38,349 bases of DNA from Planctomyces sp. Lineage in GTDB: Bacteria > Planctomycetota > Planctomycetia > Planctomycetales > Planctomycetaceae. Below are positions 10,485 through 15,971 of the stretch, one piece after another. Below the pieces are notes generated by a model. It was not told the origin of the DNA, did not search any database, and was given only the letters and a program-made list of their open reading frames with translations. The translations under genes and the position numbers were made by a program. How positions within the stretch are numbered: the stretch's first letter is position 1; every line of letters begins with the position of its first letter. The stretch spans positions 1 to 38,349 of the forward strand of contig SYJG01000448.1 in assembly GCA_005798445.1 (NCBI GenBank). The letters are read 5' to 3'.

Positions 10485-10574
10485 GGCCTGTCTCCGCCGA
10501 ATGGCACCTCGAACAAAACCGTCCAAAGCGTCATGCGCCGAAAACCGGCGAAATGGATCATCCATTTTCCCGTA

Positions 10575-10595
10575 GGTTGGCTCTCCGAGCCGACC
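10575..10595. repeat. Short hairpin repeat (9-bp stem)
   Basis: GGTTGGCTC and GAGCCGACC pair over 9 bp with one G-T pair, around a three-base loop. It resembles the short dispersed palindromes of planctomycete genomes. Either strand can form the hairpin. Confidence 0.6.
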
Positions 10596-10767: not shown

Positions 10768-13700
10768 TTACTTTGCGGGACGAAGTTCCTTGCGCCATTT
10801 TGCGGCTTCGTCCGGCTTGTCCCAGGCGTCGTAGAGTTCGACGAGATGCTGGACGGTTTCGAGGAGGTATTTTTTGCCCCAGGGCGGGAGCAGTTCTCGG
10901 CTTTTGGTGAAGCCCTGATAGGCGGCCAGCAATAGCGGCTCGGCGGCGGCGTGCTTTTGTTGGCCGAGCAAGCTGGCAGCGAGCCGCATTTGGTCGAGGC
11001 TGTGACCCCAGTTATCGGGCTGCTTGGCCGCGTCGATGACGAGTGCCTCGCGCAGCAGCGGTTCGGCGTCGGCGAAGCGTTCTTGACGAATCAGCGTCTC
11101 GGCCAGTTCGCCCAGTGTCTGTGCGACATCCAGATGTTCGTCACCGACCAACCGCCGCCGCGCGGTGAGCAGCTCGCGAAACGTTGACTCGGATTCGTCA
11201 AAACGTTTCAAGTCGCGATACAAAACGCCGAGGTTGTTCAGCGAAGCCAGCGTCGTGGGATGATCCGGCGTCAGATTGCGACGAAATCCTTCCAGGGCTT
11301 CGCGCCACACCGATTCGGCCTCCGTCAGCCGATTCTGGTTGTAGTAGAGCAGTCCCAAATCGAGCAGCACCGCGAGTGCCGCGGTGTGTTGCCGGCCTTG
11401 CGTGCGAGTGACGGTTTCGAGCCGCTCGCGAATCAGTTTCTCCGCTTCGTCAAAGCGGCCGCGTTCCAGCAAGAAGTTGGCGAGTCGATTCATGGAAGTG
11501 ATCGTCAGGTCGCTATTGAGTCCGGTCAGCCGCCGATGCGAGTTCAGCACATCGGTGAGCGTCCGTTCGGCTTCGTCAAAATGACCGGCCCGCCATTGCA
11601 CGAGCGCCAGGTTGCTGCGCGCGATCAGCGTGTCTTGGTTCTCCAGACCCTGTTGCTCGACGCGGGTGGCGACGACGACCTTCAGCAGCGCCGCGGCCTG
11701 CGCGAAATCGCCGTTGGTTTCGAGCAAGTTCGCCGTGTTCATCGTGAGCGTCAGCGTGTCGGGGTGCAGCGGCCCGCGCGAGCGGCGAAACCCGTCGAGC
11801 GCTTGCTGAAAATAGTCAGCCGCTTCGCGCAGCCGGCCTTGCTTCTGGTAGGTCACGCCCAAATTGTTGAGCGCCGTCAACGTCGCTTCATGATCCAAAC
11901 CGTGAACTCGACGCCCTACTTCGACCACCCCCAGCCACAGCCCTATCGCGTCGGGCTGGCCTTGATTGTCGTGCCAGTTCGCCAGCCGGTTGATAGCCAT
12001 CAACGTCTCCGCCGCTTCGGGTCCGAGACCTTTTCGGTACAACTCCAGCGCCCGCTCCAGATGCGGCCGCGCGGCGGAATACTCACCGAGCTGGCGGTAG
12101 GAATCGCCGATCGTCGAGCGAATCGCCGCCTCGACCAACGGCTCGTCGGCGAACCGCGTTCCGATCCGCTTGGCCGCACGGGCCAGCGCGTCGCGCACCG
12201 TGAGATTCGGGTTCGGCTGCTCTGCCGGATCACGTTGATTACCGAGTGCCGCCAAGGCCAAAACGTCTTCACGAAGAAAATCATTGACCGCCTTGGCGAC
12301 GGCCGCCTGCTTGTTGGCGCGATTCCGTTCGCCCGATACGGCGATCAGTGCCGTGTCCAACTTTTGCTTTTCGTTTTGCAAATCCACCAGAGCACGGTCT
12401 CGCGTCGTCAGCGCCGCGCTGATCCGCGCATAGCTGACGCCGAACATCGTCAAGCCGGCAATGACGAGCACGGCCGAGGCGATGGCCGCCGTCGTCACCG
12501 TCGCTCGGTGCCGTCGCACAAACTTGCTCGCGCGATACCACGCGCTCGGCGGCCCGGCAGCGATCGGCTCGTGGTTCAAGTAGCGCTCGATGTCCGCCGC
12601 CAGCTCGCTCACCGTCTCGTATCGCCGCGCTCGATCCTTCTCCAAGGCCTTCATCACGATCCAATCGAGATCGCCACACAGTATTCGTGACAGCGACTGC
12701 GCCGCTCCCTTCCGTAGGATGGGCACTCCTGTCCGTCCCTTGTTCGCGGCGGGCATTCCGCTCCATGTCCGTTCTTCAATCGGGACGGGCAAGAGTGCCC
12801 ATCCTACGGCGCATCGAACGCGCTGCGACGGCTTCACCGGTTCTTGATCGCGAATCGCCCGCAACATCTCCTCGAAACTCGGCCGCGATGCCGCATCCGT
12901 TTGCAACGGCGTCGCGCCGGTCAGCAGCTTGTAAAGCACGCCACCGAGCGCGTAGATGTCCGCCCGCGTGTCGATGTCGCCGTCCAGCGTGACTTGTTCA
13001 GGACTCATGTATTCCGGAGTGCCGAGCATCGCGCGAAACTCTCGCGTGGCCGACAGGTTCGCCGGCTGATGCAACGCCTTCGCAATCCCGAAGTCGATGA
13101 CCTTCGCCATCGGAGCCGAATCGCCCTCGCCGCTCACAACGAGCAAGTTCGACGGTTTCAAATCGCGATGCACGAGTCCCTTTTGATGCGCGTGCTGCAC
13201 CCCTCGGCAAACCTGCACGAACAGTCGCAGCCGATCCGGCACGCTCAGCCGCCGCGATTCGCAAAACTCGTCGATCGGCAACCCGGCGACCAACTCCATC
13301 ACGAAATAGGGCCGCCCCGCTGTCGTCGATCCCGCGTCGAGTACCGTCGCCACGTTGACATGATTCATCAACGCCAGCGCCTGCCGCTCCGCCTCGAACC
13401 GGCGGATGATCTCGCGTGAATCCATCCCCGGCTTGATGATTTTGAGAGCCACATCCCGCCGCACCGGCTCAATCTGCTCCGCGCGATACACCGCGCCGAA
13501 CCCTCCTTCGCCGATCCGTTCGACAATCCGATACCGCCCAATGACCGTCCCCGGTTGCTCGGCTGCTTCGACATTGGCTGGCGGAAACAGGCTCACCGCC
13601 GGCGTGGTCAGCACATCGTCTTGCGTGTCGTGAAACCGCAACAATTCCTCGACCGCCGACCTGAGCGTCGAGTCGCCTCCGCACGTTTCATCCAGATACG

Positions 13701-13776
13701 CTTTCCGCGCCACCGCGTCATCCAACTGAATCGCCGCGTCAAAAATCGCTTCTTCTTTGGTCGTGTCGGTACTCAT
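10768..13776 (-). CDS. Serine/threonine protein kinase with TM segment and TPR tail
   Basis: 1002 residues from the ATG at 13776; a GAGG lies 7 nt upstream, which favours this over the TTG at 13782. The kinase domain spans about 80-400: Gly loop GEGGFGAVY (89-97), catalytic Lys112 in ALKII, HRDLKPSN with Asp205, DFG with Asp228, and TPEYMSPEQ. A membrane segment lies at about 428-448. The rest (470-1000) is TPR repeats of kinesin-light-chain type. The layout is that of a membrane Hanks-type kinase with a sensing or scaffold tail. Residues 323-356 come from an inserted palindromic repeat that keeps the frame, in the loop before GDLDWIVMKALEKDR. It lies 58 bp downstream of the ECF sigma gene, a pairing common in Planctomycetes. 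Its substrate is unknown. Confidence 0.93.
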   Translation of the reverse strand: MSTDTTKEEAIFDAAIQLDDAVARKAYLDETCGGDSTLRSAVEELLRFHDTQDDVLTTPAVSLFPPANVEAAEQPGTVIGRYRIVERIGEGGFGAVYRAEQIEPVRRDVALKIIKPGMDSREIIRRFEAERQALALMNHVNVATVLDAGSTTAGRPYFVMELVAGLPIDEFCESRRLSVPDRLRLFVQVCRGVQHAHQKGLVHRDLKPSNLLVVSGEGDSAPMAKVIDFGIAKALHQPANLSATREFRAMLGTPEYMSPEQVTLDGDIDTRADIYALGGVLYKLLTGATPLQTDAASRPSFEEMLRAIRDQEPVKPSQRVRCAVGWALLPVPIEERTWSGMPAANKGRTGVPILRKGAAQSLSRILCGDLDWIVMKALEKDRARRYETVSELAADIERYLNHEPIAAGPPSAWYRASKFVRRHRATVTTAAIASAVLVIAGLTMFGVSYARISAALTTRDRALVDLQNEKQKLDTALIAVSGERNRANKQAAVAKAVNDFLREDVLALAALGNQRDPAEQPNPNLTVRDALARAAKRIGTRFADEPLVEAAIRSTIGDSYRQLGEYSAARPHLERALELYRKGLGPEAAETLMAINRLANWHDNQGQPDAIGLWLGVVEVGRRVHGLDHEATLTALNNLGVTYQKQGRLREAADYFQQALDGFRRSRGPLHPDTLTLTMNTANLLETNGDFAQAAALLKVVVATRVEQQGLENQDTLIARSNLALVQWRAGHFDEAERTLTDVLNSHRRLTGLNSDLTITSMNRLANFLLERGRFDEAEKLIRERLETVTRTQGRQHTAALAVLLDLGLLYYNQNRLTEAESVWREALEGFRRNLTPDHPTTLASLNNLGVLYRDLKRFDESESTFRELLTARRRLVGDEHLDVAQTLGELAETLIRQERFADAEPLLREALVIDAAKQPDNWGHSLDQMRLAASLLGQQKHAAAEPLLLAAYQGFTKSRELLPPWGKKYLLETVQHLVELYDAWDKPDEAAKWRKELRPAK
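12712..12809. repeat. Palindromic repeat inserted in frame in the kinase gene
   Basis: The arms start CCGTAGGATGGGCACTC and match over 28 bp with two differences, joined by about 42 bases. On the coding strand it is read as AVGWALLPVP...RTGVPILRK. The same peptide flavour is familiar from planctomycete proteins carrying this dispersed element. It replaces or extends a variable loop and leaves the flanking kinase motifs intact. Confidence 0.85.
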
Positions 13777-13834
13777 GTGCAATCCTCAAAGAGAAGCTCA
13801 CAAGCACTCATGCGCCGTTTCATCGAAACCTGGA

Positions 13835-14440
13835 TCAAAAATCGCCGGAGGATGGCTCGTCACCCTTGCTGATCTCCCGCAGGAGCCACGCACGGGCATA
13901 GGCCCAATATCGTTTGACGGTCGGCGTCGAGATTTCCAGCGCAGCCGCCGTCTCATCAATGCTCAGCCCGGCAAAGTAGCGGAGTTTGACGACTTCCGCT
14001 TTCATTTTGTCCTGGGCTTCCAACTTCGCCAGCGCGTCGTCGAGCGCCAGGATTTCTTCCGACGGCGGCTCAACAGAAATCTCGGCCACCTCCAATTCGA
14101 CTCGGCGGAAATCACCACCTCGTTTGATCCGCTGTTTGCGCCGAGCCTGCTCAACCAGAATCCGCCGCATCGCTTCGGCCGCCGCACCAAAGAAATGTCT
14201 GCGCGAATTCCACACGGGAGACACGTTCGGCCCAACCCCTGGCTGTCCCGTCCCGCCGAGCAACCGCAAATAGACTTCATGCACCAGCGCCGTGGCCTGC
14301 AACGTCTGCCCCGGCGTTTCGCGAGCCAACGCCGCGTTGGCCAGCCGCCGCAGCTCGTCGTACACAATCGGCAACAGCTCTTCGGCGGCTTGGGGATGGC
14401 CCCGATCAATCTCAGCCAGCAGTTTCGTGACGTCGTTCAT
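13835..14440 (-). CDS. RNA polymerase ECF-type sigma factor
   Basis: 201 residues from the ATG at 14440 (MNDVTKLLAEIDRG). The frame is open further upstream but that part overlaps the end of glnA. The Sigma70 region 2 part (about 10-90) contains LLPIVYDELRRLA and TALVHEVYLRLLG. The region 4 part (about 140-195) contains VVKLRYFAGLSIDETAAAL and a helix-turn-helix. The pattern fits the ECF subfamily common in Planctomycetes and Acidobacteria (TIGR02999 type). No anti-sigma gene is present. The kinase directly downstream is the likely functional partner. No strong Shine-Dalgarno is visible before the chosen start. Confidence 0.9.
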   Translation of the reverse strand: MNDVTKLLAEIDRGHPQAAEELLPIVYDELRRLANAALARETPGQTLQATALVHEVYLRLLGGTGQPGVGPNVSPVWNSRRHFFGAAAEAMRRILVEQARRKQRIKRGGDFRRVELEVAEISVEPPSEEILALDDALAKLEAQDKMKAEVVKLRYFAGLSIDETAAALEISTPTVKRYWAYARAWLLREISKGDEPSSGDF

Positions 14441-14558
14441 GGACCGTTGCGACTCCGCATGAGTGCCGCGTCCGGCGACAAATTTCGGGTCGTCGCGGAA
14501 ATCGAGAGACTTCCGTCCGACTTCGCAGAAGACTTTCAACTTTGACGCGCCCGCAGAC

Positions 14559-15971
14559 TCAAGCGTCGTAGTACATGGTGAACTCAAATGGATGCGGTCG
14601 TTGACGGAGAGCATCGACTTCATTCGTCGTCTTGTACCAAATCCAAGTGTCGATCACGTCTTCGGTGAAGACGTCACCCTTCAAGAGGAACTCATGATCG
14701 CGGCGGAGTACAGCGAGGGATTCGTCCAACGACGAAGGGACTTTCGGGACGGACTTCAACTCTTCTGGTTCGAGGTCGTACAAGTCCTTGTCGAACGGCG
14801 GGCCAGGATGTGTCCGATTTTGGATTCCATCGAGCGCGGCCATCAGCACCGCGCTCATCGCGAGGTAGCCGTTGCACGAGGCGTCGGGGATGCGGAACTC
14901 GATCCGGCGGCTTTCGGGGTTCGGATTGTGAACCGGGATGCGAATGGCGGCCGAGCGGTTGCGGTAGCTGTATGCCAGATTGATCGGAGCCTCGAAGCCG
15001 GGGACGAGCCGCTTGTAGCTGTTCGTCGTCGGGCAGCAGAACGCCATCAACGCCGGCCCGTGTTTTAGAATCCCGCCGATCGCGCACATCGCCAGATCGC
15101 TGAGTCCTCCGTAACCGGAACCAGCGAACAACGGTGAACCGTTCTTGAACAGCGAGAAGTGCAGATGCAGGCCAGAACCGTTGTCGTTCCAAAGCGGCTT
15201 GGGCATGAAGGTCGCCGACTTGCCGTGTCGCGCGGCGACGTTCTTCACGAGGTACTTATAGAGCAGCAGGTTGTCGGCGGTGCGCAGCAGCGGAGCGTAG
15301 CGCATGTCGACTTCGCACTGGCCGGCAGTCGCGACTTCGTGGTGCTGCCCTTCGACCTCGATGCCGCACTCCATCAGCTTGAGCATGATTTCGGTGCGCA
15401 AGTCTTGCAGCGTGTCGGCGGGCGGCGTCGGGAAGTAGCCCTCCTTGAAACGAATCTGATAGCCGGCATTCGGTCCCGTCGAGCCTTTTCCGCGGTTCCA
15501 TTGACCCTCGACGCTGTCGATGTGGTAGTACGCCTCGTGTTCGTTCTGATCGAAGCGGACGTCGTCAAAAACGAAGAACTCAGCGGCAGGTCCGAAATTG
15601 GCGACGTCAGCGACGCCGGTTTGCAACATGTAGTTCGTCGCCTTGCGAGCTACGTTTCGTGGGTCGCGAGGGTAATCCTGCCGAGTGGTCGGGTCTTGGA
15701 TGTTGCAGGTCATCGCCAACGTCTGGCTGAGGAACGGATCGACGATCGCGGTCTCGGCGACAGGGACCAGCAGCATGTCGCTCTCGTTGATCGACTGCCA
15801 ACCACGCAGCGAGCTGCCGTTGAAGCCAAAGCCGTCCTCGAAACTGCGTTCCTTCAGGATCTTGCAGGGGATCGTGACATGTTTTTGAGTCCCTGGAAAA
15901 TCCATAAAGCGCAAGTCGATCGCCTGGATTTCCCGTTCACGGCAGAGAGCCAGCACTTCGCGCGGTGTCAT
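14559..15971 (-). CDS. glnA: Glutamine synthetase, type I
   Basis: 470 residues from the ATG at 15971 (MTPREVLAL), the usual GSI length; the longer open frame upstream has no family similarity. It makes glutamine from glutamate, ammonia and ATP in the cytoplasm. Visible landmarks are FMDFPGTQKH, GFNGSSLRGW, AAEFFVFDD, the NDNGSGLHLHFSLFKNG ATP/metal region, the NRSAAIRIP segment and DLYDLEPEE. Tyr398 in that last motif matches the adenylylation site of the GSI-beta group, so control by adenylylation is possible. No glnB or ntrBC neighbour is present. A divergent 66-residue gene starts 351 bases upstream. Confidence 0.97.
   Translation of the reverse strand: MTPREVLALCREREIQAIDLRFMDFPGTQKHVTIPCKILKERSFEDGFGFNGSSLRGWQSINESDMLLVPVAETAIVDPFLSQTLAMTCNIQDPTTRQDYPRDPRNVARKATNYMLQTGVADVANFGPAAEFFVFDDVRFDQNEHEAYYHIDSVEGQWNRGKGSTGPNAGYQIRFKEGYFPTPPADTLQDLRTEIMLKLMECGIEVEGQHHEVATAGQCEVDMRYAPLLRTADNLLLYKYLVKNVAARHGKSATFMPKPLWNDNGSGLHLHFSLFKNGSPLFAGSGYGGLSDLAMCAIGGILKHGPALMAFCCPTTNSYKRLVPGFEAPINLAYSYRNRSAAIRIPVHNPNPESRRIEFRIPDASCNGYLAMSAVLMAALDGIQNRTHPGPPFDKDLYDLEPEELKSVPKVPSSLDESLAVLRRDHEFLLKGDVFTEDVIDTWIWYKTTNEVDALRQRPHPFEFTMYYDA

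Follow-up and report, generated by a model that had tools for sequence, protein, structure and literature searches.

A REP doublet read in frame within a planctomycete protein kinase gene, and REP family turnover at coding sites of the same genus

REPs inside genes: described systems and the present locus

GTAG-type REPs and REPINs are described together with RAYTs (Nunvar 2010, PMC2817692; Bertels and Rainey 2011, PMC3116915; Di Nocera 2013, PMC3733652), and the choice of the cleavage site has been ascribed to the GTAG guide, including cleavage at CC with GTGG (PMC8266576). REPs in Planctomycetes have already been reported (PMC3733652), and intragenic REPs are known from Opitutus terrae, from recB of Xanthomonas and from other genes, with dimers that are translated in frame as 20-30 amino acids (Di Nocera 2013, PMC3733652). 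At about the same recB site, two Xanthomonas species carry different REPs (PMC3733652). A change of REP class at orthologous positions between related strains, termed REP orthoswitch, was found at RAYT genes (Nunvar 2013, PMC3686654). Moreover, the Rickettsia RPE elements RPE-4 and RPE-6 have CGTC tags and belong to a class that lacks a transposase of its own (PMC3733652).

Here, we analysed a 38,349-nucleotide stretch of DNA from Planctomyces sp. (contig SYJG01000448.1; the window), in which a palindrome lies within a kinase gene. The family to which this palindrome belongs, hereafter F1, resembles GTAG REPs and REPINs in its 5' GTAG tag, its imperfect hairpin, its many copies and its inverted doublets with variable spacer, and also in that it flanks RAYT genes, in relatives. 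Unlike a typical member of this class, it has no cognate RAYT in its own draft genome, and the kinase copy is intragenic. F1 was not matched to a published REP consensus, as the published consensus figures lay outside the comparison. As for the intragenic REPs of Di Nocera 2013, these are REP dimers in frame in real genes, and the present work goes beyond that study in tracing orthologous loops through a genus at three genes. The likeness to Rickettsia RPE lies in palindromic repeats being in frame in many unrelated proteins, whereas the F1 tag is GTAG and not CGTC, and both sequence and phylum differ. Finally, while REP orthoswitch concerns RAYT genes, the switching reported here takes place at in-frame sites inside proteins. 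With intragenic REPs published, the kinase REPIN is a known kind of event.

The REP doublet and its kinase host

The element and its host gene comprise the following features of the window:

12712-12809, no strand assigned: REPIN (inverted doublet of two REPs) with in-frame read-through; 28-nt arms, 26/28 complementary
12714-12738, plus strand: REP arm GTAGGATGGGCACTCCTGTCCGTCC, 23/25 against the family consensus
12739-12782, no strand assigned: 44-nt spacer separating the two REPs; none of the 37 own-genome doublets has a longer one (median 12)
12783-12807, minus strand: REP arm GTAGGATGGGCACTCTTGCCCGTCC, 25/25 against the consensus
10768-13782, minus strand: host gene, a Ser/Thr protein kinase followed by TPR repeats, 1004 amino acids from a TTG (ATG at 13776), by open frame and Pfam
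12883-13533, minus strand: Pfam Pkinase match, residues 84-300, upstream of the insert, catalytic motifs intact
12631-12675, minus strand: C-lobe segment GDLDWIVMKALEKDR (alphaH and following), just after the insert, by homologue alignment

The original prediction, made from the letters of the window, had described a near-perfect inverted repeat with 28-bp arms that is read through in frame inside the kinase gene. Both parts were borne out: the arms (12712-12739 and 12782-12809, 28 nt each, with 42 nt between them) are 93% complementary, and the reading frame on the minus strand is open throughout. Both arms are REPs in their own right, in which a GTAG tag precedes the imperfect hairpin GATGGGCA-CTCT-TGCCCGTC, so that we describe the feature as a REP doublet (REPIN/BIME) and not as a single, simple palindrome. 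Its hairpin has a fold of -69.6 kcal/mol, compared to -42.0 +/- 3.9 for shuffled sequences (z = -7.1), and both strands fold far better than shuffles (z of -7.1 and -8.1). A simple chance palindrome was ruled out by this fold and by the copy number. An Rfam search with the hairpin returned no family above the gathering score; a match to MIR918, far below that score, reflected hairpin resemblance only. Within the spacer lies a further palindrome, short and imperfect or degenerate, which may be the remnant of a third REP. The core GTAG...CTAC (12714-12807) codes for the peptide VGWALLPVPIEERTWSGMPAANKGRTGVPILR, which corresponds to residues 326-357 when counted from the TTG or to residues 324-355 from the ATG two codons on.

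When the kinase was aligned with PknB and with four homologues, drawn from the genus and the family, the insert fell between alphaG, which ends with ...PSQRV, and alphaH. At this position, the linker of the four homologues is short and variable and carries no insert, in agreement with the predicted location in a variable loop. Homologues L088-L090 read PS.RL-SS..TLP..A..R..EP..L...VRGDLDW here, and the window kinase has 22 extra alignment columns relative to these. In an AlphaFold model, built on a shallow alignment, residues 313-368 are predicted to be unstructured (pLDDT < 50) between helices. The proposed comparison with kinases lacking the repeat could be made in part, with four insert-free homologues and no close orthologue: neither the own genus nor the 170 family genomes yielded a kinase orthologue (best match 47% identity), so that the insertion is visible only against homologues. 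Because the native linker, some 14 residues long, can no longer be made out next to the insert, we consider the event to be an insertion with loss or divergence, not a clean insertion. The kinase gene adjoins an ECF sigma factor gene (13835-14623).

The replacement of the native linker by a long loop would be consistent with the view that the insertion had damaged the kinase and the gene were a pseudogene in the making. This is highly unlikely, given that all 1004 codons are open, that codon usage before and after the insert is that of coding sequence, and that the TPRs, the alphaH segment and all catalytic motifs (GEGGFG, VALK, HRDLKPSN, DFG and SPEQ), the latter as originally predicted, are intact. 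The kinase with the loop probably still works. A different possibility is that the REPIN peptide was domesticated as a selected part of the kinase, such as a regulatory loop or docking segment. The kept frame would be consistent with this, as would the position of the insert, since CMGC kinases carry an insert of their own between alphaG and alphaH. However, the insert was seen in one species only, and the kinase-copy arm that departs from the consensus does so by two changes that both alter amino acids.

F1 copies, RAYT genes and genic depletion

As anticipated in the original prediction, the palindrome is a genomic repeat and not unique: F1 occupies about 41 places in the own draft genome (7.96 Mb, 90% complete), where the exact word GTAGGATGGGCA occurs 40 times and its reversed control 0 times. 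The 40 places that were read in detail comprise 77 REP arms, and 37 of these places are inverted +/- doublets whose spacers measure 1-44 nt. The GTAG tag is strongly conserved across the 77 arms (G in 76, T in 70, A in 74 and G in 75), and within the nine-pair stem of the hairpin both pair 6-23 (A-T in 61, T-A in 15) and pair 7-22 (T-G in 64, C-G in 11) covary. F1 was carried by 25 of the 170 family genomes, in 9 of 58 genera, and by all 12 genomes of the own genus.

In relatives, F1 is found next to RAYT genes. F1 doublets lie on either side of a RAYT gene in G070 (L098, which matches Pfam Y1_Tnp), and near-F1 REPs lie on either side of another in G090 (L092). The own draft genome, which is 90% complete, gave 8 Y1_Tnp hits, none of which was flanked by F1, and we infer local F1 mobility from the relatives. 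Three own-genome RAYT genes (L034, L035 and L037) are each flanked by pairs of their own GTAG REP, namely GTAGCCGCCTCGCTCCCGCGAGGCGG, GTAGCAGGCACACTCCGTGTGCC and GTAGGACGGCCTTTCCAGGCCGTC.

When genic copies were called by a codon model together with an open-frame rule, 8 of the 39 own-genome copies scored (21%) were in frame within genes, compared to about 60% for random sites (P = 6e-7). F1 is predominantly extragenic in the wider sample as well, as 70 of 79 sampled copies were not in-frame genic, with about 40% expected. The suggested count of in-frame copies hence revealed depletion: genic F1 insertions are strongly depleted and the surviving ones keep the frame, which makes the kinase copy a tolerated survivor. 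The eight hosts are an HrpA helicase, a HAD hydrolase, an AcrB-type transporter, an AP_endonuc_2 TIM barrel, a 1633-aa ORF, a DUF7133/HEAT protein, a PSCyt/PSD1 protein and this kinase; an SDR protein (L074) was judged by eye to be a ninth. The kinase had been called a clear case of a repeat turned into protein sequence, and this holds for the read-through. It is not special, since about eight other own-genome genes carry F1 and intragenic REPs have been published (PMC3733652). Genic F1 copies used two reading frames equally (4 and 4 of 8), which counts against a domesticated peptide.

We therefore consider it well supported, with a probability of roughly 0.85, that an F1 REPIN entered a planctomycete Pkinase-TPR gene at the linker between alphaG and alphaH, where its translation would give a disordered, tolerated surface loop of about 32 residues. 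Its mobilisation would most likely be due to a RAYT (TnpA-REP), an HUH single-strand transposase of the IS200/IS605-like type. Translation as a loop would be possible because the REP arm is stop-free in five of six reading frames and the host frame is unbroken, and tolerance by the linker would explain why the insert persists. There is no sign of selection for a function of the peptide, which is presumably neutral. Such an event would illustrate a route by which bacterial proteins gain loops from small mobile palindromes.

A second coding REP family and turnover at shared loops

The genus harbours a further, GTGG-tagged REP family, F3 (GTGGGGCAGGTTTCCAACCTGCCC; L288-L347 and L388-L407), which is stop-free in all six frames and in-frame genic at 27 of 80 places sampled in the genus. 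Among 24 five-prime arms in genes, 20 shared one reading frame, VGQV[FS]NLP (pattern VGQV[FS]NLP...GQVENLPH), and doublets had a length of 3n in 19 of 22 genic cases versus 23 of 46 outside genes (P = 0.007; this and the following P value are somewhat too small because some F3 copies are non-independent, with L294/L320 and L330/L388 looking like orthologous pairs). This frame bias speaks for some peptide selection and, to that extent, for domestication. Pure peptide selection was nevertheless rejected as its cause, as F3 inserts between C and G (C^G) and this flank context alone predicts 12.5 of 22 copies in phase, thereby explaining part of the bias. The excess over this prediction (19 of 22, P = 0.003) makes some selection on the allowed peptide likely, at least against bad frames. 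We also rejected the idea that the stop-free F3 is more often genic than F1: the difference within the genus (27/80 versus 8/39) was not significant (P = 0.20), and the overall difference (P = 0.001) was confounded by F1 copies from other genera.

Three of the F1 hosts, HrpA, AP_endonuc_2 and PSCyt, were followed across the genus, with orthologues of mostly 84-90% identity. The in-frame palindrome loops were:

L004, 1501-1567
L039, 1501-1552
L071, 2252-2315
L107-L142: the orthologues

At all three hosts, palindromes also occurred in frame in the orthologous loops, only a few bases at most from the corresponding position, and they often came from another REP family. F1 was present at shared loops in the own genome and G006, F2 (GTAGGACGGACAATCCTGTCCGTCC) in G010 and G011, and F3 in G009 and G003 and, for PSCyt, in G006, G007 and G010, while F4 (GTAGGTTGGGACTCTGTCCCGACC) was found at AP_endonuc_2 in G007, G009 and G010. 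The remaining orthologous loops were decayed or empty, and the outgroup species G004 and G005 were empty at HrpA and AP_endonuc_2. The resident family thus turned over at all three host genes, and the genus offers a natural series at fixed protein sites (empty, F1, F2, F3, F4, decayed) that is useful for studying REP turnover and the choice of insertion target. F3 is abundant, with 239 exact copies in G009, and F2 is rare; the loci from the F4 scan belonged to records labelled Planctomycetes or Kuenenia-type anammox bacteria, and the gene content, with cytochrome families typical of planctomycetes, likewise points to Planctomycetota.

In most orthologous doublets the arms were complementary at 18-22 of 22 positions, with two decayed AP_endonuc_2 copies, and between families 4-16 of 22 positions differed in both arms. 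At the HrpA site, four pairs had changed on both sides (four sequences only), and the spacers of the F1 and F2 copies looked homologous. F1 and F4 shared their boundaries at AP_endonuc_2, and those of F1 and F3 differed by a few bases. At HrpA, G010 and G011 both have F2 together with a 6-nt deletion in the flank, despite belonging to different clades.

Arms that change together while staying complementary, including the four HrpA-site pairs, could mean that the hairpin is kept for a nucleic-acid role in the gene, such as attenuation of transcription or translation, mRNA stability or a gyrase site, and the very stable fold of the kinase copy would suit such a role. Yet RAYT-driven replacement or conversion of whole REPs would generate the same covariation with no benefit to the host, the site is empty or decayed in several species, and the host proteins are unrelated, all of which renders a host function of the hairpin very improbable.

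In these sequences, the DNA palindrome persists and the peptide does not. A persistent palindrome with a changing peptide at three hosts speaks against peptide domestication, which, with sister species carrying different palindromes and peptides at these three other hosts, we regard as very unlikely indeed. Of the original wording, a repeat domesticated or at least tolerated, tolerance is supported; domestication is not, considering the single species, the depletion in genes and the peptide that often differs at the three other sites. As a comparative test of domestication against tolerance, a persisting palindrome with a changing peptide would, if true, point to selection on the DNA element.

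To our minds, nothing in the finding is of greater interest than this turnover of coding REPINs within one genus. The palindromes at the shared loops may have been replaced or converted, or a tolerant loop may have taken up insertions repeatedly. It is conceivable, at somewhat less than even odds, that certain protein loops serve as long-lived REPIN docking sites in this one planctomycete genus, where other REP families would repeatedly replace the palindrome in place, or convert it one arm at a time, with the frame kept. Proteins would then pass on the DNA element, and the peptide would turn over with the resident transposase system.

Elsewhere in the window, a 3545-aa ORF that runs off the contig end (3-10637, minus strand) encodes a Laminin_G_3 domain as well as numerous calcium-binding repeats of the RTX type, and a weak single F4 REP match (10572-10595, 19/24) lies close to the 5' end of this RTX gene.
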